Source: Hylemonella sp. (GTDB lineage: Bacteria; Pseudomonadota; Gammaproteobacteria; Burkholderiales; Burkholderiaceae_C). From it: a stretch of DNA of 64,000 nt. A program made the translations under genes and the position numbers. Under the pieces are notes generated by a model. The model was not told the origin of the DNA, did not search any database, and saw nothing but the letters and a program-made list of their open reading frames with translations. Where the stretch lies: the NCBI GenBank assembly GCA_030695415.1, contig JAUYQZ010000049.1, positions 62,001 through 126,000 on the forward strand, read 5' to 3'. Below, piece by piece: positions 17,095 through 49,641 of this stretch. The stretch's first letter is position 1; each line of letters opens with the position of its first letter.

Positions 17095-17760
17095 TCAAGC
17101 CCCCGGGGGCCGCGCAGCGGGCGGCCACCCCACCGTCTGCGTCAGCAGGATCTGCTGGTCAGCACTCAGGCCCATGGCCTGCGCCAGGGCCTGGCGGTCG
17201 AACCAGGCGCGCACCACCGTGGCCAGGCCCGCCGAGCTGCAGTACAGGTAGATGTTCTGCGCCATGGCACCGGCCGCGACCGAAGCGTAGGACTCGCGCA
17301 TGGCCGCCGGCACCATCTTCATGCGGCCGTGGTCGGCCACGAAGACCAGGTCCAGCGGCGCGTGGTCCACGAAGTCCTGGTAGCCGGTGACACGCCGCAC
17401 GTCCTCGGCCTTCATCAACAGAAGCACATGACGCTGCGGCTCGTAGCGGTACAGGCCCTGGGGCAGCGCGACGTAGAGGTCCACCTCTTGGGCGTTCAGT
17501 GCCGAAGGCGCCGTGCGCCCGCCGTGTTCGGCGCGGTTGATCCCCGTTGCGGCCCACAGCAGGTCGGACAGTTGCTGCGGCATCAAAGAGTCGGAACGGA
17601 ATTCACGCTCCGAGTGCCGGCGCTGCAGCGCATCCATCAGCGGCAGGCCGCCCGTGGTCTGTGCCGGCGGCAGCGCCATCTCGCCCAGTGTCTCGCCCGT
17701 GGCGGGCTGGCCGTGCAGCTGGCCCAGCAGCCCCAGCGCCATCTTGGTCAAGGTGTTCAT
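17095..17760 (-). CDS. SagB/ThcOx-type nitroreductase family protein
   Basis: A 221-residue FMN-dependent nitroreductase-like protein. Family features are the R.S.R.F-type opening (LQRRHSEREFRSDSL), LLWAATGINR, the small APSALNAQEVDLYV block and the C-terminal GLATVVRAWFDRQALAQAMG. The reaction could be nitro/quinone reduction or a SagB-like dehydrogenation. Residues 1-30 (MNTLTKMALGLLGQLHG) form a hydrophobic start that may act as an export signal or anchor. The ATG at 17760 was chosen for its GGAGG 6 nt upstream; the upstream frame is too proline- and arginine-rich to be credible. Confidence 0.83.
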   Translation of the reverse strand: MNTLTKMALGLLGQLHGQPATGETLGEMALPPAQTTGGLPLMDALQRRHSEREFRSDSLMPQQLSDLLWAATGINRAEHGGRTAPSALNAQEVDLYVALPQGLYRYEPQRHVLLLMKAEDVRRVTGYQDFVDHAPLDLVFVADHGRMKMVPAAMRESYASVAAGAMAQNIYLYCSSAGLATVVRAWFDRQALAQAMGLSADQQILLTQTVGWPPAARPPGA

Positions 17761-17798
17761 CGGGTCCCTCCTTTCAGGGCGCGGGCGAGGCCGCCGGC

Positions 17799-18125
17799 TC
17801 ACTCCCCGTCGAGATGCGGCGGCGAAAGCCCCTCGGCGAGTTCGCCGGTTGAGGGGTCGATCCAGTCGGCAATGCCCAGTTCGCTTTCGGCCTCCTGCAG
17901 GCTCTCCCCGGGCTCGGGGGCCTCCAGGTCCGCCGCGGCCTCCATGTCGGCCTGGGCTTCATCAAAACTGTCGTAAGGGCCGAATTCCCGCCCGCCGTCC
18001 GTCAGGCTCCAGTAGTAGCCGCCGGGGCGCTTGAGCACCTGCCCCACCAGGATTTCCCCGGCCTCGGGCACCGCCTTCATGCTGGGCGTCTCGTGGCTGC
18101 TGGCGTCGGCTTTCTTGCGTGGCAT
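17799..18125 (-). CDS. Conserved small acidic protein, unknown function
   Basis: A 108-residue acidic protein. A lysine-rich start (MPRKKADASSHE) leads to a compact central segment (GQVLKRPGGYYWSLTDGGRE, then FGPYDSFDEAQADME) and an acidic tail. The YYWSL...FGPYDS..EA pattern suggests a small beta-rich domain of the kind that marks DUF-type proteins, but I do not recognise it. The ATG at 18125 has GGAAGG 7 nt upstream. It lies 38 bp before the nitroreductase gene on the same strand, so they may be co-transcribed. Confidence 0.65.
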   Translation of the reverse strand: MPRKKADASSHETPSMKAVPEAGEILVGQVLKRPGGYYWSLTDGGREFGPYDSFDEAQADMEAAADLEAPEPGESLQEAESELGIADWIDPSTGELAEGLSPPHLDGE

Positions 18126-18245
18126 GGCTGCACCTTCCTGCTGACAGTGGGCCGACATGGTGGTGGCCGACCCGGACACGCCTAATGATGCACACAGCCG
18201 GAGGCAACCGGCAAGCTGGTCATTCATCCACCTGTGGGCGCCCGC

Positions 18246-18893
18246 TCAGCTGGCGCGCGAATGCCGGTGCGCCTTCCAGGCGCCGAAGATCACGATCAGG
18301 CCGGGAACCAGGATCATGGCCCAGATGATCTTGTCCAGATTGGCCTTCACCCAGGGCAGGCTGCCCAGGAAGTAACCGGCGGTGCAGATGCCCAGCACCC
18401 AGATCAAGGCGCCCACGATGTTGTAGAGCGTGAACTTCACGCGGCTCATCTCGGCCACACCGGCCACGAAGGGCACGAAGGTGCGCAGGAAGGGCATGAA
18501 GCGCGCCAGGATGATGGTGATACCGCCGTAGGTCTCGTAGAAGTCGTGGGCGCGCTGGAAGGCCCGCTTGTTGAAGAAGCGCGAGTTCTCCCACTGGAAG
18601 ACCTTGGGGCCGAAGTAGCGCCCGATAGAGTAGTTGGTCTGGTCGCCCAGGATGGCCGCGGCCAGCAGCACCGTCACCGCCACCGGGTAGCTCAGCAAGC
18701 CGGCGCCGGCCAGGGCCCCCACCACGAACAGCAGCGAATCACCCGGCAGGAAGGGCATGACCACCACACCGGTCTCGACAAAGACGATGAGAAACAGCAG
18801 CGCGTAGACCCAGACGCCGTAGGCCTGCACGAAGGCCTCCAGGTGCTTGTCCACGTTCAGGATGAAGTCGATGAGAAAGTTAATCAGTTCCAT
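18246..18893 (-). CDS. DedA family membrane protein
   Basis: A 215-residue inner-membrane protein of the DedA family, some members of which flip undecaprenyl phosphate or other lipids. Diagnostic segments are the reentrant-like ETGVVVMPFLPGDSLLFVVG, LGDQTNYSIGRYFGP, and the RFMPFLRTFVPFVAGVAEM block with its conserved arginines. C-terminal helices follow (GALIWVLGICTAGYFLG, IIWAMILVPGLIVIFGAW). The start is ATG at 18893. A PAP2-type phosphatase gene is divergent after 72 bp; both families handle lipid phosphates, so a functional link is possible but unproven. Confidence 0.93.
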   Translation of the reverse strand: MELINFLIDFILNVDKHLEAFVQAYGVWVYALLFLIVFVETGVVVMPFLPGDSLLFVVGALAGAGLLSYPVAVTVLLAAAILGDQTNYSIGRYFGPKVFQWENSRFFNKRAFQRAHDFYETYGGITIILARFMPFLRTFVPFVAGVAEMSRVKFTLYNIVGALIWVLGICTAGYFLGSLPWVKANLDKIIWAMILVPGLIVIFGAWKAHRHSRAS

Positions 18894-18965
18894 GCTTGGG
18901 GATTATCCTCGCGCCGCGGCCCGGCCAGGGGTAGACTGCGCCGACCCTGTTTTTTGGGAGCGAGC

Positions 18966-19778
18966 ATGCGGCCCGTGCGCCATCGACCACACCTTGTCGT
19001 GCTGCTGGTGTTCAGCATTCTGCTGGTTGCGCCCACGAGCCCGGCCCGAGCCGCAGGCGCGGCGCCGGATTCGACGACTGCCTGGGGCGAGCGCCTCGGC
19101 CGTGCCATGCGAAACGCCGCGCTGTCCCCGCGAACCTGGGCACCCCTGCTGGGCGCACTGGCCCTGCAAGCCGGTGACGCGGACCGGCGGCTGCAGGCAT
19201 GGGCGGCCGAACACACACCCGTCTTCGGCTCCCGAAGCCAGGCCGACAGCATGAGCGACGATTTCAAGCTGGCCGCCAACGGCGCCTGGCTGGCCACCGC
19301 ACTGGCGCCCTGGCGTGAGCAGAGCGAAGGCAGCTGGCTCGCCGACAAGACGCAGGTGCTGGCCGTGCAGGTGGGCGCCCACATGGTGACCAGCACCGTG
19401 GTGGGCGAGCTGAAAGACCGAACCGCCCGCATGCGGCCCAACGGCGAGGGCGCCACCAGCTTTCCTTCGGACCATGCGTCGCGCGTGGCGCTGCACGGCA
19501 CGTTGGCCAAGAGCAATCTGCGCCAGTTGGGCTGGTCCGAGCGCAGCGTGGCCGCGGCCGACCTGGGACTCGACACCCTGAGCGTGGCCACGGCCTGGGC
19601 GCGCGTGGAAGCCAACCAGCACTACCCGTCAGACGTGCTCGCCGGCCTGGCGCTGGGGCACTTCATCGGCACCTTTGCCACCGAGGCCTTTCTGGGCGGC
19701 AACGCGGCCCAAGCACCGCAGCTGAACGTTCAAGCTGCGCGGGACCGCTTCGTGGTCGCGCTGCAGCTGCCCTTCTGA
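18966..19778 (+). CDS. PAP2 superfamily phosphatase
   Basis: A 270-residue exported acid phosphatase of the PAP2 superfamily, acting on lipid or sugar phosphates. A signal peptide (LVVLLVFSILLVAPTSPARA) precedes the domain. All three phosphatase motifs are visible: KDRTARMRP (KX6RP), SFPSDHAS, and ARVEANQHYPSD (RX5HX3D). The open frame runs far upstream, but the ATG at 18966 has GGGAG nearby and begins the signal peptide. It is divergent from DedA. The AT-richer cassette region begins 70 bp past its stop. Confidence 0.85.
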   Translation: MRPVRHRPHLVVLLVFSILLVAPTSPARAAGAAPDSTTAWGERLGRAMRNAALSPRTWAPLLGALALQAGDADRRLQAWAAEHTPVFGSRSQADSMSDDFKLAANGAWLATALAPWREQSEGSWLADKTQVLAVQVGAHMVTSTVVGELKDRTARMRPNGEGATSFPSDHASRVALHGTLAKSNLRQLGWSERSVAAADLGLDTLSVATAWARVEANQHYPSDVLAGLALGHFIGTFATEAFLGGNAAQAPQLNVQAARDRFVVALQLPF

Positions 19779-41908: not shown

Positions 41909-42826
41909 TCAAGGTTGTGCGCTTTTCTGCATCCGTTTCAGAGCGTAATGCTGCACCCAACCCACCAGCTGCAGCGCAGCGGGTGTAAGCGGCAGATCGT
42001 GGCGACGCACGGTGCAAATCAGAGGCCTAGGCAATTCGTCGTTGATCGGCACCACACACAGCCGGTCTTGCATGGCGCAGTTTTCATACAAGATCTGCGG
42101 CATGGTCGTGACCCATTGATCTGACGCCGCCACCACCGCTGGCAAAGCCAGAAACGATTCGCACAGCATTTTTACTCTGGGCGCTCCCAAACCAACTTTG
42201 CGAAAAGCTTCCTCGATCACGGCACCTGGACCTCGGGATGGGCTCGATAAGACCCAATCGCAGTCCTGCAATTGCTCTAGCCGGGTGGCCTGGGCGCAGG
42301 GATTTCTCACCGAGCACACAATGACCACTTGACTGGCATACAAAGGCTCAGCCACCAGGTCATTTTCAAGATCCACCCTATGCACCGGGGTCAGCGCGAA
42401 ATCGAGTGTCCCGTCACGAAGTGCTGGAGTGATGCCAGGGTAGAGGCCGTCACGGCAATGCACCTTAACGTTCGGGTACTGTGAAGTGAATTGCTGCAAA
42501 GCCTGCGGCAGCAAGCCCAGACTGATCGCGGGCGATACGGCCATCTTTACCGTTCCCTCCCAATGGCCTCGTAACTGAGAAATCTCGTCTTGCGCCCGGC
42601 GGCTTTGCGCGACCATCAGCTTCGCATGTTTCAGAAAGGCCTGCCCGAAATGGGTAAAGGTCACCCCCTGGCGACTGCGCACCAGCAAAGGCGCCTGTAG
42701 CTCACTCTCCAACTGCTGGATGGCTGCCGTCAAGGCGGGCTGGGTCAGGTTCATCGAGCTGGCTGCAGCGCGGATGCTGCCCAGTTCCTCAATGAATACC
42801 AGCGCCTGCAAAGTCGGAAGTCTCAC
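41909..42826 (-). CDS. tsaR: LysR-type regulator of the tsa-like operon
   Basis: A 305-residue LysR-type regulator. The winged helix (LQALVFIEELGSIRAAASSM, NLTQPALTAAIQQLESEL) is followed by an effector domain starting near GTVKMAVSPAISLGLLPQAL. It is divergent from tsaM with an AT-rich palindrome between, the position TsaR holds in Comamonas testosteroni. The symbol rests on context rather than sequence and the effector may differ. The start is GTG at 42826. 81 bp of its 3' side follow the DUF1178 fragment region. Confidence 0.72.
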   Translation of the reverse strand: MRLPTLQALVFIEELGSIRAAASSMNLTQPALTAAIQQLESELQAPLLVRSRQGVTFTHFGQAFLKHAKLMVAQSRRAQDEISQLRGHWEGTVKMAVSPAISLGLLPQALQQFTSQYPNVKVHCRDGLYPGITPALRDGTLDFALTPVHRVDLENDLVAEPLYASQVVIVCSVRNPCAQATRLEQLQDCDWVLSSPSRGPGAVIEEAFRKVGLGAPRVKMLCESFLALPAVVAASDQWVTTMPQILYENCAMQDRLCVVPINDELPRPLICTVRRHDLPLTPAALQLVGWVQHYALKRMQKSAQP

Positions 42827-42839
42827 ACCCGCACCATAT

Positions 42840-42867
42840 AAAAATAGTTGATCACATCAATATTTTT
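42840..42867. promoter_or_regulatory. AT-rich palindromic operator between tsaR and tsaM
   Basis: AAAAATA (42840-42846) pairs with TATTTTT (42861-42867) around TTGAT-CAC-ATCAA (42848-42860), giving a nearly continuous 28-bp dyad 14 bp from the LysR start. It contains T-N11-A spacing, so it is the likely regulator site for both directions. Confidence 0.65.
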
Positions 42868-42959
42868 CTGAATTTTCATTATTAGAGCTTCTTTCTACGA
42901 TTCACTCAAGTCGAAAAGCTCCGGGTAATGCGAGTCCGACTTGAAACAAGGAGACTGCT

Positions 42960-44003
42960 GTGTTCATCAGAAATTGTTGGTATGTCGCCGCCTGGGACAT
43001 CGAAGTTCCTCAGGAGGGCCTGCTCGCCAGAACCCTGCTCAACGAACCCGTTCTGCTTTACCGCGATAGTCAGGGGCGTGCCGTGGCACTGGAAAACCGT
43101 TGCTGCCACCGCGCGGCGCCATTGCATCTGGGCCGCAAGGAAGGCGACTGCGTGCGCTGCATGTACCACGGTCTCAAGTTTGATCCGACCGGTGCCTGCG
43201 TCGAAATTCCCGGTCAAGACAAGATCCCGCCCAAGACCTGCATCAAGAGCTATCCGGTCGTCGAACGCGACCGGCTGATCTGGATCTGGATGGGTGAGGC
43301 CCAGCTGGCGAACCCGGACGACATCGTCGACTACCACTGGCATGACTCGCCCGATTGGCGCATGAAGCCCGGCTACATCCATTACAAGGCCAACTACAAG
43401 CTCATCGTGGATAACTTGCTGGACTTCACCCACCTCGCCTGGGTGCACCCGACCACCTTAGGCACCGACAGTGCCGCCGCTTTGAAGCCGGTGATCGATC
43501 GCAACAACGATGGCAACGGAACGCTGAGCATCACACGCTGGTACTTCAACGACGATATGCCCAGCCTGCACAAAAAAGTCGCGAAGTTCGAGGGCAAAGT
43601 CGACCGCTGGCAGATCTACCAGTGGTCCCCGCCGGCCTTGTTGCGCATGGACGCCGGGTCAGCTCCGGTGGGCACCGGTGCCCCGGAGGGCAAGCGCGTA
43701 CCCGAGGCGCTCCAATTTCGCCACACCTCCATCCAAACACCGGAGACTGAAAACACCAGCCACTACTGGTTTTGTCAGGCGCGCAACTTTGAGCTTGGCA
43801 ACGAAGCCATGACGGAATCGATCTTCCAGAGCGTGGTGGTGGCTTTCGAAGAGGACCGCACCATGATCGAAGCACAGCAGAAGATCCTGGACCAGGTGCC
43901 AGACCGGCCGATGATCCCGATTGCCGCCGACAGCGGCCTGAACCAGGCGCGTTGGCTGATCGATCGCCTGATCAAGGCCGAATCCTCGCAGGATCGCACA
44001 TGA
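42960..44003 (+). CDS. tsaM: Rieske oxygenase, toluenesulfonate methyl-monooxygenase (TsaM)-like
   Basis: A 347-residue Rieske non-heme iron oxygenase. The Rieske site is CCHRAAPLHLGR followed by CVRCMYHGLKF (C-x-H ... C-xx-H). The mononuclear iron site is NLLDFTHLAWVHPTTLGT with a later aspartate in FEEDRTMIEAQ. Length and gene order (tsaMBCD with divergent tsaR) match the p-toluenesulfonate/p-toluate methyl-hydroxylase of Comamonas testosteroni, so methyl hydroxylation of an anionic arene is likely. Vanillate O-demethylase is the main alternative. The start is GTG with AAGGAG 6 nt upstream. Confidence 0.82.
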   Translation: MFIRNCWYVAAWDIEVPQEGLLARTLLNEPVLLYRDSQGRAVALENRCCHRAAPLHLGRKEGDCVRCMYHGLKFDPTGACVEIPGQDKIPPKTCIKSYPVVERDRLIWIWMGEAQLANPDDIVDYHWHDSPDWRMKPGYIHYKANYKLIVDNLLDFTHLAWVHPTTLGTDSAAALKPVIDRNNDGNGTLSITRWYFNDDMPSLHKKVAKFEGKVDRWQIYQWSPPALLRMDAGSAPVGTGAPEGKRVPEALQFRHTSIQTPETENTSHYWFCQARNFELGNEAMTESIFQSVVVAFEEDRTMIEAQQKILDQVPDRPMIPIAADSGLNQARWLIDRLIKAESSQDRT

Positions 44004-44947
44004 GGCAAGTCAACGTCAGCCGAGTGCAGGCCATCGCGCGTGATGTGCTGCTGGTCGAACTGCGAGCCGAGGCGGGGCAAGTGCTACCGGGCGCCACACC
44101 GGGCGCACACATTGATCTGCATCTGCCCAATGGACTGGTTCGTCAATACTCACTGACCAACGCGCGAGGCCAGACCAGCCAGGACTGCTATCAAATTGCG
44201 ATTGGCCGCGACGCACACAGCCGGGGTGGGTCCGCCTGGGTGCACGACAAACTGCGCGTGGGCAGCAGCCTGACCATCAGCGAACCACGCAATCTTTTCG
44301 AACTCGACACGGTAGCGCACCGCAAAGTGCTCTTCATCGGTGCAGGAATCGGTATCACCCCGATCTACGCCATGGCCGCTGCCGCAGCCCGCGCTGACAT
44401 CGACTGGGCGCTGGTGGCCTGTGCCCGCTCAGCCAGCCGGATGGCGTTTGCAGAGGAACTCCAGGCTCTGGATAGACAGCGGGTGCGCTTCCACTTCGAC
44501 CTCGAGCAGGGCGGACCGCTTGATCTGCCGGCGCTGGTCAAAGCCGATGCCTGGGATTCGATCTACGCCTGCGGTCCTGCTGGCCTGCTCGACGCGATCG
44601 AAGTACAGACCGCCGATTGGCCGGCCGGTACGGTGCGGATGGAGCGCTTCAAGGCGCCCGAGCAAGACGTCAGCGCCAACACGGTCTTTGAGCTGGTCTT
44701 GTCCAAAAGCGGTCGATCGATTCAAGTCAGCGCCACCGAGAGTCCGCTGGAGGCGCTAGAGCGCTGCGGTGTCGAACACCCCTACGCCTGTCGGGAGGGA
44801 CTGTGTGGCACCTGCGAGGTCCAACTGGTGGAAGGCCAAGCCCAGCACCGCGATAACGTACTGGACGCCCAAGACAAGGCCGCAGGACATCGCTTTATTC
44901 CCTGCGTCTCGCGTTGCGGCGGCGACAGGCTCGTCATTAACCTTTAG
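44000..44947 (+). CDS. tsaB: Oxygenase reductase (TsaB/VanB-like)
   Basis: A 315-residue electron-transfer partner for the Rieske oxygenase. It has an FMN-binding domain (RQYSLTN), an NAD-binding domain (VLFIGAGIGITPIYAMA, YACGPAGLLDAIE) and a C-terminal plant-type [2Fe-2S] ferredoxin domain (ACREGLCGTCEVQLVEGQ, with the fourth cysteine in FIPCVSR). It shuttles electrons from NADH to the Rieske cluster. The ATG at 44000 overlaps the tsaM stop by 4 bp, so they are translationally coupled. Confidence 0.85.
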   Translation: MRQVNVSRVQAIARDVLLVELRAEAGQVLPGATPGAHIDLHLPNGLVRQYSLTNARGQTSQDCYQIAIGRDAHSRGGSAWVHDKLRVGSSLTISEPRNLFELDTVAHRKVLFIGAGIGITPIYAMAAAAARADIDWALVACARSASRMAFAEELQALDRQRVRFHFDLEQGGPLDLPALVKADAWDSIYACGPAGLLDAIEVQTADWPAGTVRMERFKAPEQDVSANTVFELVLSKSGRSIQVSATESPLEALERCGVEHPYACREGLCGTCEVQLVEGQAQHRDNVLDAQDKAAGHRFIPCVSRCGGDRLVINL

Positions 44948-44954
44948 GGTAACC

Positions 44955-45713
44955 ATGAACCTCCAACAAAAAACTGCCATCGTGACCGGCGGAGCCTCCG
45001 GATTTGGTGCAGCCACCGCCATGAGGCTGGCCCAAGCCGGCGCCCGCATCATGGTGGCCGACCTCAACGCCGCAGGAGCAAAAAAGGTCGCCAACGAGAT
45101 CGTGACCGCCGGCGGTCAGGCCAGCAGCGTCGTTGTTGACATTGCCGATCGGGGATCGTTTGAGCAGATGGTCGCAACAACCCATAAGACCTTCGGTGGC
45201 CTGGACATCCTGGTCAACAATGCAGGCACGACCCATCGCAACAAACCCGCGCTGGAAGTCACTGAAGAAGAATTCGACCGCGTCTTTCGCGTGAACGTGA
45301 AGAGCCTGTTCTGGGCAGCCCAGGCTGTGCTGCCTGGATTTGCCCAGCAAGGCCATGGTTGCATCGTGAACGTGGCCTCCACCACCGGCGTGCGTCCCGG
45401 CCCGGGCTTGGTTTGGTACAGCGGGAGCAAGGCCGCCATGATCAACCTGACCAAGGGCCTGGCGCTCGAATTCGCGCGCTCAGGCGTGCGCATCAATGCG
45501 GTCAACCCGATGATCGGCGAAACCCCCATGCTGGGTGATTTCATGGGTATGGAAGACACGCCGGACAATCGGGCGCGCTTCTTGATGCGCATCCCGTTGG
45601 GCCGTTTCACGCGACCGGACGACGTCGCATCGGCGGTGGCTTTCTTGGCCAGTGATGACGCTTCCTACCTCACCGGTGTTTGCCTCGACGTCGATGGGGG
45701 CCGCAACATATGA
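44955..45713 (+). CDS. tsaC: SDR alcohol dehydrogenase (TsaC-like)
   Basis: A 252-residue short-chain dehydrogenase. It has the NAD-binding TGGASGFGAATAM motif, an NNAG motif (in ILVNNAGTTH) and the catalytic Ser/Tyr/Lys (NVASTTGVRPG, YSGSKAAMI). TsaC oxidises 4-sulfobenzyl alcohol and is, as I recall, also 252 residues. Here it would oxidise the benzyl alcohol made by TsaMB. It starts 7 bp after tsaB and overlaps tsaD. Confidence 0.8.
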   Translation: MNLQQKTAIVTGGASGFGAATAMRLAQAGARIMVADLNAAGAKKVANEIVTAGGQASSVVVDIADRGSFEQMVATTHKTFGGLDILVNNAGTTHRNKPALEVTEEEFDRVFRVNVKSLFWAAQAVLPGFAQQGHGCIVNVASTTGVRPGPGLVWYSGSKAAMINLTKGLALEFARSGVRINAVNPMIGETPMLGDFMGMEDTPDNRARFLMRIPLGRFTRPDDVASAVAFLASDDASYLTGVCLDVDGGRNI

Positions 45714-47140
45714 GTACCGCTTACCGCGCCCCGGACTTGCTGATCAACGGGCAATGGTGTGCTGGCAAACACGCCATGACCATGCCAATTGTCAATCCAG
45801 CCAACGCACAGACTCTGGATCACCTGCATTTGGCCAGCTCCGATCAAATCGAGCAGGCGCTGCAAGCAGCGCATCGGGGTTTCGTAATCTGGCAGAAAGT
45901 GCCGGCCCACGAGCGTTGTGCGAGGCTGGAAAGAGGCGTCGCCAAGATGCGCCAGAATCTGGAGCACATCGCCACCCTGCTTACCCTGGAACAGGGAAAA
46001 CCCCTCGCTGAGTCGCGTGCTGAATGCGCCATGGCGGCCGACTTGATCAAGTGGTATGCGGAAGAAGCCCGTCGTACCTACGGACGCATCGTGCCGGCGC
46101 GTCTGCCCAACAGCAGCATGCAGGTGCACAAGCTACCCATTGGACCCGTCGCTGCCTTTTCACCCTGGAACTTCCCACTGGTGCTCTCGTCCCGCAAGAT
46201 CGGCGGAGCCTTGGCGGCAGGCTGTTCGATCATCCTCAAAGCCGCGGAAGAAACCCCGGCGAGCGTGGCTGCCATGGTGGCATGCTTTCACGAGGAGTTG
46301 CCGGAAGGCGCCCTGCAACTGCTCTATGGGGTGCCCTCCGAAGTCTCCGAGCAACTGATCACCTCGCCGTTGATACGCAAGGTCAGCTTTACCGGCTCTG
46401 TACCCGTCGGTCGCCAGCTGGCGCAGTTGTCTGCTCGTCATCTCAAGCGCGTCACTCTGGAACTGGGCGGTCACGCGCCGGTCATCGTCTGCGCCGATGC
46501 CGACATCGACAAGACCGTGACCATGATGGTCACGCACAAGTTCCGTAACGCAGGTCAAGCATGCCTGGCGCCGACACGTTTTTATGTGGATCGACAGATC
46601 GAGGGTCCCTTCCTAGAAGCCTTCGTCGCCGCGAGTCATCGGCTCGTACTCGGTGACGGCATGCAAAGCACCACCCAGATGGGCCCGCTTGCCAACGCCC
46701 GCCGTGCGGCGGCTGTGCGAGACCTTATTGGACGTTCCGTGGAAGCCGGCGCCAAAGCCTACCAGGCACCCGTTCCGTCGGCAGGCTTCTTCGCACCCGT
46801 GACCGTCTTGACTGAAGTGACCCCGGATACGCCGGTCATGCAGGAAGAGCCATTCGGACCGGTCGTCACCATCGCGCCGTTTGACACCTTGGACCATGCC
46901 CTGCAGTTGGCCAATAACTCCCCCTATGGGCTGGCTGGCTACCTCTTCACTGACTCGGCCCGTAGCATCCACCAGGTGACCCAAGGCCTCGAAGTGGGAA
47001 GCCTGGCGATCAATGGCATCGGTGTGTCGGTACCTGAGGCACCCTTCGGTGGCGTCAAGGACAGCGGCCACGGCAGCGAGTCCGGCACGGAAGGCATGGA
47101 AGCATTCCTCGAAACCAAGTTCGTTCATTTGTGCGTGTAA
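45710..47140 (+). CDS. tsaD: Aldehyde dehydrogenase (TsaD-like)
   Basis: A 476-residue NAD(P)-dependent aldehyde dehydrogenase. It has the cofactor site AFSPWNFPLVLSSRKIGGAL and FTGSVPVGRQLAQ, catalytic glutamate in TLELGGHAPVIV and nucleophilic cysteine in RNAGQACLAPTRF. In the tsa pathway TsaD oxidises 4-sulfobenzaldehyde to the benzoate. The ATG at 45710 overlaps the tsaC stop by 4 bp. A succinate-semialdehyde-type enzyme cannot be ruled out from sequence alone. Confidence 0.8.
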   Translation: MSTAYRAPDLLINGQWCAGKHAMTMPIVNPANAQTLDHLHLASSDQIEQALQAAHRGFVIWQKVPAHERCARLERGVAKMRQNLEHIATLLTLEQGKPLAESRAECAMAADLIKWYAEEARRTYGRIVPARLPNSSMQVHKLPIGPVAAFSPWNFPLVLSSRKIGGALAAGCSIILKAAEETPASVAAMVACFHEELPEGALQLLYGVPSEVSEQLITSPLIRKVSFTGSVPVGRQLAQLSARHLKRVTLELGGHAPVIVCADADIDKTVTMMVTHKFRNAGQACLAPTRFYVDRQIEGPFLEAFVAASHRLVLGDGMQSTTQMGPLANARRAAAVRDLIGRSVEAGAKAYQAPVPSAGFFAPVTVLTEVTPDTPVMQEEPFGPVVTIAPFDTLDHALQLANNSPYGLAGYLFTDSARSIHQVTQGLEVGSLAINGIGVSVPEAPFGGVKDSGHGSESGTEGMEAFLETKFVHLCV

Positions 47141-47165
47141 CGCGCTAACCTCAGGAGACCTCATC

Positions 47166-48134
47166 ATGGTACGTCGCAAACTACTCACTGTCCTAGCTCT
47201 GGCCTGCTCGCTGCTCGCTGGCACTTCAGTCTTCGCCCAAACCGATAAGACACTGCGCATCCTGGTTGGCTTTCCGGCCGGCGTGTCCATCGACGTAGTG
47301 ACCCGCATCCTGACGGAAAAGATGAAGGATGAGCTCAAGCGCCCGATAGTCGTGGACAACCGTCCCGGTGCCGGCGGCCGTCTTGCGGCTGATCTGTTGA
47401 AGTCTGCTGTACCAGACGGCAATACTGTCATGATCACGCCGATCGTCGTGCCGGTGCTCGCCCCCATGGTGTTCAGCAAATTGAACTACAACCCCGAAGC
47501 GGACTTCGCCCCGGTGGGCAAAATTTGTGATTTTTCATTTGCGCTGGCTGTTCCCGCCAACTCTCCGGTCAAGACCTTCAAAGAGTACGCGGCCTGGCTC
47601 AAAGCCAACCCGCAACAAGCCAATTTCGGCTCGCCAGCAGCGGGCAGCCTGCCGCACTTCTTCGGCGTGATGATTGGCTCGGCCCTCAATGTTGAGATGG
47701 TGCACGTTCCTTTCAACGGTGGCGCGGCGCTGCAGAGTGCGGTTTTGGGTGGTCACGCCCCTGCGGGTATCGACGTGGTGATGGAGTGGCAACAGAACGC
47801 CAAAGCCGGCAAGGTGACGGTTCTCGCGACATCCGGCGCGCAACGCAGCAAGGTCATGCCCGATGTGCCCACCTTTAAAGAGCAGGGCTTCCCGGACGCG
47901 GTGGGTCAGGGGTGGTTTGCCATGTATGCGCCGGCCAAAACACCCGCTGCTGCGATTGATGAGATCAACAAGGCGCTCAACAAAGCCCTGGCCAATCCCG
48001 AGGTGCGCGAGCGTTTTGCGGCACTGGGCTTGGAGCCGGCCGGTGGAACTCCCGCTGATCTGCAAAGGACCATGCAGGAAGATGCCAAGCGCTGGACACC
48101 GATTGTGAAGAAGTCGGGCTTCAGAGCTGACTGA
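47166..48134 (+). CDS. Bug-family solute-binding protein in the tsa-like operon
   Basis: A 322-residue periplasmic protein with signal peptide (RKLLTVLALACSLLAGTSVFA). The Bug blocks are TLRILVGFPAGVSIDVVTRI, RPIVVDNRPGAGGRLAADLL and VEMVHVPFNGGAALQS. It probably binds the anionic substrate of the operon for a permease encoded elsewhere. CAGGAG precedes the ATG, which lies 25 bp after tsaD. The original tsa cluster instead carries an outer-membrane/permease pair (tsaST), so this uptake arrangement differs. Confidence 0.9.
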   Translation: MVRRKLLTVLALACSLLAGTSVFAQTDKTLRILVGFPAGVSIDVVTRILTEKMKDELKRPIVVDNRPGAGGRLAADLLKSAVPDGNTVMITPIVVPVLAPMVFSKLNYNPEADFAPVGKICDFSFALAVPANSPVKTFKEYAAWLKANPQQANFGSPAAGSLPHFFGVMIGSALNVEMVHVPFNGGAALQSAVLGGHAPAGIDVVMEWQQNAKAGKVTVLATSGAQRSKVMPDVPTFKEQGFPDAVGQGWFAMYAPAKTPAAAIDEINKALNKALANPEVRERFAALGLEPAGGTPADLQRTMQEDAKRWTPIVKKSGFRAD

Positions 48135-48193
48135 GTCAAACTCAAGATCAGTCCGTTGACAGCACTACATAGGGAGTGCCTTTGGAGCCGCTT

Positions 48194-49516
48194 ATGAACC
48201 GTCCCAATATCGTTTTTATCGTCGCTGACGATCTGGGCTTTGCTGATCTAGGCTGTTACGGCGGGCGTGACGCCGAATTCGGACCTGTGTCACCGTGCAT
48301 CGACCAGCTCGCCGCAAACGGCTTGCGCCTGACCGAAGGTTATGCCAATTCACCTGTGTGTTCGCCCACACGTTTTGCGCTGATGACGGCCCGTTACCAG
48401 TACCGCCTGCGGGGTGGCGCGGATGAGCCTATTAGTAGCAAAAGCAAAGGCAGCACGATTCTGGGCCTGCCCCCTGAGCACCCCACCTTGCCATCGCTGC
48501 TCAAAGATGCGGGCTACCACACGGCGCTCATCGGCAAATGGCATTTGGGCTACCCGCCCAGCTTCGGTCCGTTGCGCTCGGGTTACGAGGAGTTTTTCGG
48601 CCCGATGTCGGGGGGGGTGGACTACTTCACCCACTGCAGCAACAATGGTTCGCACGACTTGTACCTGGGGGAGGCGGAGCACAGGGAAGAAGGCTACCTC
48701 ACCGACTTGCTGTCAAAACGGGCGGTCGACTATGTGCGCCGCATGGGCAAGCCCGGCCAATCACAGCCTTTCTTCCTGAGCCTGCACTACACCGCACCGC
48801 ATTGGCCCTGGGAGACCCGTGACGACTCTGAGGTGGCAGAGGCGACCAAGAGCAACATATTTCATCTGGATGGCGGCAACATCCACACCTACCAGAGGAT
48901 GATCCATCACATGGATGAGGGCATCGGTTGGGTGGTCGAGGCCTTGCGCGAGACCGGGCAACTCGACAACACCCTGATTGTCTTCACCAGTGACAACGGT
49001 GGCGAGCGCTTCTCCGACAACTGGCCGCTGGTGGGCGGAAAAATGGACCTCACTGAGGGTGGCATCCGCGTGCCCTGGATCGCCCACTGGCCTGCCGTCA
49101 TTCCGCCGGATTCGGTGAGTGCGCAGCACTGCATGACCATGGATTGGTCGGCTACCATGCTCGAGCTCGGGCAGGCGCAAGTCGCATCGACTCATCCTTT
49201 GGACGGCATTTCGATCAGCGCCGTATTGCGCAATCCCTCGCTCATCTTTCATCGTCCGATGTACTGGCGCATGAACCACCGCAGTCAGCGGGCCATGCGT
49301 GAAGGGCCATGGAAGTACCTGCGCGTCGATGGCAACGATTACTTGTTCAATGTCGTCAGCGATGCGCGTGAACGAGCCAACTTAGCCCAGAGACAACCCG
49401 AACGGCTCGCCGCCATGCGACGGGCCTGGGAAGAGTGGGAGGCCTCGATCCCTCCCATTCCGGTCGATGCTGCCATCAGCCTGGGCTACTCTTACAAGGA
49501 CATGCCACAGCGTTGA
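48194..49516 (+). CDS. Cytoplasmic formylglycine-type sulfatase
   Basis: A 440-residue sulfatase of the alkaline phosphatase superfamily that hydrolyses sulfate esters. Seen: NIVFIVADDLGFADLGCYGG with metal-binding Asp 12/13, the signature C56-S-P-T-R (VCSPTRFALMTARYQYRL) whose Cys must be converted to formylglycine, IGKWHLGYPP, and FTSDNGGERFSDNWPLVGGK. The usual TG(R) after the signature is TA(R). There is no signal peptide, so it acts in the cytoplasm, unlike many arylsulfatases. It follows the Bug gene by 59 bp. A GTG at 48176 is a weaker alternative start. Confidence 0.9.
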   Translation: MNRPNIVFIVADDLGFADLGCYGGRDAEFGPVSPCIDQLAANGLRLTEGYANSPVCSPTRFALMTARYQYRLRGGADEPISSKSKGSTILGLPPEHPTLPSLLKDAGYHTALIGKWHLGYPPSFGPLRSGYEEFFGPMSGGVDYFTHCSNNGSHDLYLGEAEHREEGYLTDLLSKRAVDYVRRMGKPGQSQPFFLSLHYTAPHWPWETRDDSEVAEATKSNIFHLDGGNIHTYQRMIHHMDEGIGWVVEALRETGQLDNTLIVFTSDNGGERFSDNWPLVGGKMDLTEGGIRVPWIAHWPAVIPPDSVSAQHCMTMDWSATMLELGQAQVASTHPLDGISISAVLRNPSLIFHRPMYWRMNHRSQRAMREGPWKYLRVDGNDYLFNVVSDARERANLAQRQPERLAAMRRAWEEWEASIPPIPVDAAISLGYSYKDMPQR

Positions 49517-49623: not shown

Positions 49624-49641
49624 AGCCCGGCACTCCGGGCT
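49624..49641 (+). terminator. Hairpin after the sulfatase gene
   Basis: AGCCCGG and CCGGGCT with a CACT loop, then CTCCTGTTT. A weak intrinsic terminator resembling the one after cheV. The rest of 49517-49665 holds no gene. Confidence 0.5.

Follow-up and report, generated by a model that had tools for sequence, protein, structure and literature searches.

A Tsa-type operon with a linked sulfatase in Hylemonella and its probable role in the catabolism of a methylated aryl sulfate ester

We analyzed a 64,000-nucleotide stretch of the Hylemonella sp. assembly GCA_030695415.1 (contig JAUYQZ010000049.1, positions 62,001 to 126,000 of the forward strand), here called the window and numbered from its first letter, with a focus on the locus at 41909-49516 that codes for an oxygenase, a reductase, a short-chain dehydrogenase (SDR), an aldehyde dehydrogenase (ALDH), a Bug protein and a sulfatase together with a divergent LysR-type regulator. 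All seven genes were found, with open frames and in the order that had been claimed beforehand, and we conclude that they probably form an operon by which a methylated aryl sulfate ester is catabolized, p-cresyl (p-tolyl) sulfate being the most likely substrate. Besides this gene content we observed a Tsa-type SDR and LysR, a linkage of the sulfatase to the operon that recurs across genomes, and PobA and LigA genes in the same genome.

Linkage of the sulfatase was followed across a named genome collection that was scanned with a two-sequence alignment, the window oxygenase plus a relative. At least 594 stretches matched the pattern and at least 549 encode a relative, of which the best 80 were retained. 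Grouped by identity to the window oxygenase, 13 of these loci (L105-L116 and L180) are at 76% or more, four (L117-L120) are at 61-66% and 63 are below 57%. With linkage scored in two rounds of tblastn (matches covering at least 40% and at least 45% of the query length), a window-type sulfatase is present in the same stretch in nine of the 13 close loci. The linked sulfatase lies 3' of the ALDH or Bug gene in L105, L106, L108, L109, L110, L112 and L180, and before the LysR gene in L111 (Hydrogenophaga borbori LA-38) and L113. A linkage test on L105-L116, which leaves out L180 as a near copy of L110, gave 8 of 12 linked loci, where copy number and genome size would lead one to expect 0.13 (P ~4e-14 ignoring shared descent, which makes this value too small). 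As a control, only one of the 63 loci with a distant oxygenase has a sulfatase match, a weak one (28%, L129) that was seen in one of the two tblastn rounds and not within the limits of the other, although many of the 63 are clipped by contig ends. Chance or artefact was ruled out as an explanation by the linkage test together with this imperfect control. All 12 genomes behind L105-L116 carry a window-type sulfatase, as do 14 of the 16 behind L105-L120, the two without it being those that have the PehA-like gene described below. In regards to L180, its record is titled Akkermansia muciniphila but its contig is near-identical to the Burkholderiales locus L110, and it is probably a misassigned contig.

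The strongest evidence that the sulfatase would be a real partner of the operon is its apparent repeated recruitment. A sulfatase tree of 59 sequences (nine linked, the window included, and 50 others) was made by a quick method with SH-aLRT support only, and the L108 sulfatase, which is clipped by a contig end, was left out by an 80% length filter. In this tree the linked sulfatases occupy five places (L113; L111; L112; L106 with L110 and L180; the window with L105 and L109), and linkage requires five changes, each of them a gain or a loss and all forced by starred branches. On the oxygenase tree, linkage requires only two changes, and a starred clade composed of the window, L105, L106, L107 and L112 contains three different sulfatase lineages 3' of the operon, with none in L107. 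The explanation that the sulfatase was merely inherited with the operon was ruled out by these two changes on the oxygenase tree versus five on the sulfatase tree, the SDR tree being less clean. At greater distance, the Thiomonas loci L117 and L119 have a PF00884 protein nearest to PehA, with its start 10 and 34 bp past the ALDH gene, in which CGPSR was found by eye; since PehA takes its name from phosphoric as well as sulfuric esters, this protein need not be a sulfatase. The remaining two loci in this identity range, L118 and L120, come from short contigs and are little informative.

The Tsa-type identity that had been assigned to the operon is confirmed for the SDR and the LysR, which among solved structures match TsaC and TsaR best. 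Specifically, the window LysR is 59% identical to TsaR (the 3FXQ entry is named 'LysR type regulator of tsaMBCD'), and its sole other match below 1e-20 among solved structures is a second TsaR construct. The window SDR is 75% identical to TsaC over 252 aa, with T143 and G149 (gating) as well as D36, Y155 and K159 all identical; an excerpt of a study of these enzymes ties the TsaC gating residues to substrate choice (PMC10579966). Relative to tsaMBCD/tsaR of Comamonas testosteroni T-2, which is for p-toluenesulfonate, the window operon has the same gene order and the same divergent LysR, a likeness that is one of sequence for the SDR and LysR and one of gene position for the oxygenase, reductase and ALDH. 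A TsaM sequence for comparison was not found, either as a plasmid match of at least 60% or among the named solved chains, nor was a TsaB or TsaD sequence found, and a plasmid copy of tsa was also searched for and not found. The gene order is likewise common to mdeABCD of Hydrogenophaga QY7-2, for which the excerpted text reports overlaps between genes 1 and 2 and between genes 3 and 4 (PMC5172442), the positions at which the window operon has 4-base overlaps (oxygenase/reductase and SDR/ALDH). Unlike tsa and mde, the window operon contains an extra Bug protein and an S1 sulfatase.

The coordinates of the locus are given in Table 1. The frames and Pfam matches reproduce the predicted tsaMBCD/tsaR order of oxygenase, reductase, SDR and ALDH with a divergent LysR, and the Bug and sulfatase genes said to have been added to this set are both located 3' of the ALDH gene, with a gap of 59 bp between them. 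For the reductase and Bug genes, the starts (44000 and 47166, respectively) were placed in this analysis. No terminator-like sites were found in the intergenic gaps of the operon; further such sites occur inside genes, and the nine seen versus a mean of 7.0 in shuffles are not an enrichment.

Table 1. Features of the operon locus in the window.
Feature	Position	Strand	Basis
LysR-type regulator, TsaR-like	41909..42826	-	PDB 3FXQ match, E=8.6e-116
Rieske oxygenase (VanA_C), TsaM position	42960..44003	+	PF19112, PF00355; CxH-x16-CxxH and DxxHx4H motifs
Reductase with C-terminal 2Fe-2S domain, TsaB position	44000..44947	+	PF00111, PF00175
Short-chain dehydrogenase (SDR), TsaC-like	44955..45713	+	PDB 8SY8, E=4.2e-124
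Aldehyde dehydrogenase (ALDH), TsaD position	45710..47140	+	PF00171
Bug/TctC periplasmic binding protein	47166..48134	+	PF03401; Sec-type leader judged by eye
S1 formylglycine-type sulfatase	48194..49516	+	PF00884; CSPTR at 48359-48373
Terminator-like stem 3' of sulfatase	49624..49641	+	consensus match only

Several of the related operons have additional neighbors. A second Rieske oxygenase and a zinc alcohol dehydrogenase adjoin the operon in L108, L110, L112 and L180, and this second oxygenase is 70-100% identical to the L110 copy and about 44-48% identical to that of the window. TRAP transporter genes accompany it in L108, L110 and L180, and in L106 this dehydrogenase is found with a reductase. 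Near the operon of L109 there is, besides the linked sulfatase, an extra PF00884 protein (17584-19017, minus strand) that is closest to the arylsulfatase model (278 bits, cut-off 481).

The window sulfatase has the PF00884 fold and a CxPxR motif, CSPTR, at residues 56-60. This motif is invariant in 20 aligned rows (those of relatives being clipped at match ends), as are D12, D13, D267 and N268, which we take to be metal residues. The absence of a signal peptide that had been noted is borne out, as the earliest in-frame start (48176) adds only six residues and leaves no room for a leader, and the enzyme is thus predicted to be cytoplasmic. Across the bacterial family as a whole, 104 of 299 genomes have a window-type sulfatase, compared with all 12 of those behind L105-L116, and many of these sulfatases are 70-78% identical. 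Among 18 stretches with unlinked sulfatases (L066 and L084, which have other or more distant sulfatases, were left out), a Bug gene is present in all 18, MarR in 12 and SulP in nine. This Bug-sulfatase module (Bug, S1 sulfatase and often MarR or SulP, in the same family) resembles the window in having a related sulfatase with a Bug gene nearby, but it is without the close oxygenase, TsaC-like SDR or TsaR of the window operon. The window's own genome has a second sulfatase (L065, G000:C3:26368-27684) that is 74% identical, is accompanied by a pair of Bug genes together with a divergent LysR, and adjoins a ShlB-type outer-membrane gene.

The substrate, the position of its methyl group, the order of steps and the role in transport are what we infer for the operon, as follows. 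The Bug protein may help import the aryl sulfate anion, whose methyl group would be hydroxylated by the Rieske oxygenase and reductase. The SDR and ALDH would then carry out oxidation to the carboxylate, 4-sulfooxybenzoate, with NADH returned, and the cytoplasmic sulfatase would free sulfate from this intermediate to give 4-hydroxybenzoate. PobA, which is encoded elsewhere in the genome, would convert 4-hydroxybenzoate to protocatechuate for 4,5-cleavage. The alternative order, in which desulfation occurs first and the route passes via p-cresol, is also possible, though it is not the one that we favor. We count for p-cresyl sulfate the preference of TsaM, assayed with VanB, for the anionic para-substituted 4-methylbenzenesulfonate over 4-methylbenzoate, as given in excerpted text (PMC10579966).

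Methyl oxidation and desulfation of p-cresyl sulfate would give 4-hydroxybenzoate, and pobA neighbors of the operon fit this product. In L105, the operon is adjoined by pobA (673 bits, cut-off 538.7) and by a pobR-like gene that is near the PcaR/PobR family (266.7 bits, below the cut-off of 284.75), and homologs of both (85% and 75%) are present in inverted order beside the operon of L109. The 4-hydroxybenzoate product named in the initial annotation thus gains from the pobA and pobR-like genes at two loci, while p-cresyl sulfate as the substrate and oxidation as the first step stay at the level of its proposal. PobA is above cut-off in all 17 operon-carrier genomes (the window's included) versus 195 of 299 in the family, a modest difference that is also affected by shared descent. 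The window's genome additionally has two LigA genes, with a PcaH match that is below cut-off, so ring cleavage would take the 4,5 route. In a separate part of L105 (1314-6765), a 3-hydroxybenzoate 6-monooxygenase (511.8 bits, cut-off 459), a Bug protein, a sulfatase (about 55%), an extradiol-dioxygenase-like gene and an FAA hydrolase lie in a row, possibly a second aryl sulfate route, and in L070 a TsaD-like ALDH (52%) lies within a Bug-sulfatase stretch. Together this second set of L105 and L070 suggest that the sulfatase family may act on small aromatic sulfates.

With regard to transport, the window Bug protein is 68-88% identical to Bug genes 3' of the ALDH in operon loci and only 25-43% identical to Bugs in sulfatase stretches, the exception being a 52% match in L069 that does not adjoin the sulfatase. 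That the window Bug belongs to the sulfatase module was ruled out, as it matches the Bugs of operons lacking a linked sulfatase (L107, 88%; L114, 69%). TctAB is absent from the operon, and there are three TctA matches elsewhere in the window's genome. In regards to the fate of sulfur, TauE directly follows the sulfatase gene of L112 and adjoins the operon in L108, L110 and L180, and SulP is 3' of the ALDH in L111. Sulfur leaving as waste would fit use of the substrate for carbon.

A number of observations weigh against p-cresyl sulfate catabolism as the role of this operon. TauE is named for sulfite export and would also fit use of a sulfonate. Four of the 13 close loci (L107, L114, L115 and L116) lack a linked sulfatase, their genomes carrying a window-type sulfatase elsewhere, and the SDR tree shows a scattered linkage, with five changes of which two are forced. 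A close oxygenase is absent from all 18 unlinked sulfatase stretches, so the window-type sulfatase, which occurs in Bug/MarR/SulP settings without one, is not specific to this pathway. No pobA match was found in the other 11 of the 13 close loci, and PobA of the window's genome is on another contig. The sulfatase scores 115.7 bits with the NCBIfam arylsulfatase model PRK13759, below its cut-off of 481, and its nearest solved relatives are iota- and kappa-carrageenan enzymes. The carrageenan sulfatases (PDB 6BIA, 6B0J and 6PRM) and the S1-19 sulfatase 9HH3 have the PF00884 fold and formylglycine motif in common with the window sulfatase; however, the substrates of the carrageenan enzymes are sulfated sugars, whereas the window sulfatase is predicted to be cytoplasmic and lies inside an aromatic operon.

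The main gap in the mechanism, which also counts against it, concerns maturation of the sulfatase. A canonical formylglycine-generating enzyme (FGE) was not found in the window's genome (98.67% complete), where a radical-SAM maturase was not searched for. Two PF03781 proteins are encoded here, both lacking GGS..C....C, which we take to be the canonical FGE motif; by eye, one is EgtB-like and the other is without the FGE cysteines. A strict scan for the motif, which covered 30 of 34 PF03781 matches (the other four being without a locus), found it in only three of the 17 operon-carrier genomes (G306, G309 and G314). Stronger PF03781 proteins without the strict motif are present in G303, G305 and G308. 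Either a maturase has been overlooked or an alternative route is used. The motif was not seen in 14 carrier genomes, the window's (G000) and 13 others, and at least five of the 17 (G000, G299, G303, G304 and G314) have an FGE-like protein with GGSWWY replacing the cysteine motif.

Some of these points would be accounted for if one transcript served two separate functions, with the Tsa-type genes acting on p-toluate or p-toluenesulfonate and the sulfatase doing no more than scavenging sulfur from other esters. The four close operons without a linked sulfatase and the Bug/MarR/SulP modules that lack the operon are as this explanation would have it, and sulfite derived from a sulfonate would suit the TauE genes found next to four operons. 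We nevertheless consider it unlikely, as sulfatases from five tree places and one other S1 family have joined the operon, linkage far exceeds the chance expectation, and the pobA neighbors fit a hydroxybenzoate product. The same chemistry could also be directed at m-cresyl sulfate, a dimethylphenyl sulfate or some other methylphenyl sulfate. Excerpted text reports that TsaC accepts 3-(hydroxymethyl)benzoate and that TsaM acts on 3-methylbenzoate (PMC10579966), and L105 has its second sulfatase alongside 3-hydroxybenzoate 6-monooxygenase; but pobA, the operon neighbor in both L105 and L109, takes its name from 4-hydroxybenzoate, and the 3-hydroxybenzoate genes of L105 come with a sulfatase of their own, which makes these substrates doubtful. 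Finally, a methoxy-aryl sulfate, demethylated by an O-demethylase like VanA or DdmC and then cleaved by the sulfatase to free the phenol, is suggested by an oxygenase family that includes O-demethylases and by DdmC as the best solved match (E=3.7e-51), but is improbable given that a TsaC-type SDR and ALDH belong to methyl-to-carboxylate oxidation, that the TsaC gating residues are kept and that the LysR is TsaR-like.

Returning to p-cresyl sulfate as the favored substrate, the known toluenesulfonate genes group by sequence with the sulfatase-linked operons, a placement that is fully supported for TsaR and weakly for TsaC. TsaR is 82% identical to the LysR of L110 and L180, 81% to that of L108 and 75% to that of L109, and it falls with these four, all sulfatase-linked, in a starred clade of five (100/100). 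TsaC has the same neighbors (86, 84 and 80%) with weak support (80/59). We tentatively suggest, at less than even confidence, that the chromosomal sulfatase-linked operons could represent a natural p-cresyl sulfate pathway and that tsa, for the synthetic compound p-toluenesulfonate, could be a derivative that lost the sulfatase because its substrate is no more than similar to the natural compound.

p-Cresyl sulfate is a major excreted form of p-cresol, and paper abstracts call it a uremic toxin. Among the matches listed from the open-licence literature (titles and abstract openings), no description was found of a bacterial pathway that joins a Tsa-type oxygenase to a sulfatase. If the proposed role is true, Comamonadaceae, several of them freshwater kinds by name, would have a dedicated carbon pathway for aryl sulfates, with H. 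borbori LA-38 as a named carrier strain, and the textbook pollutant pathway for toluenesulfonate would have a natural origin.

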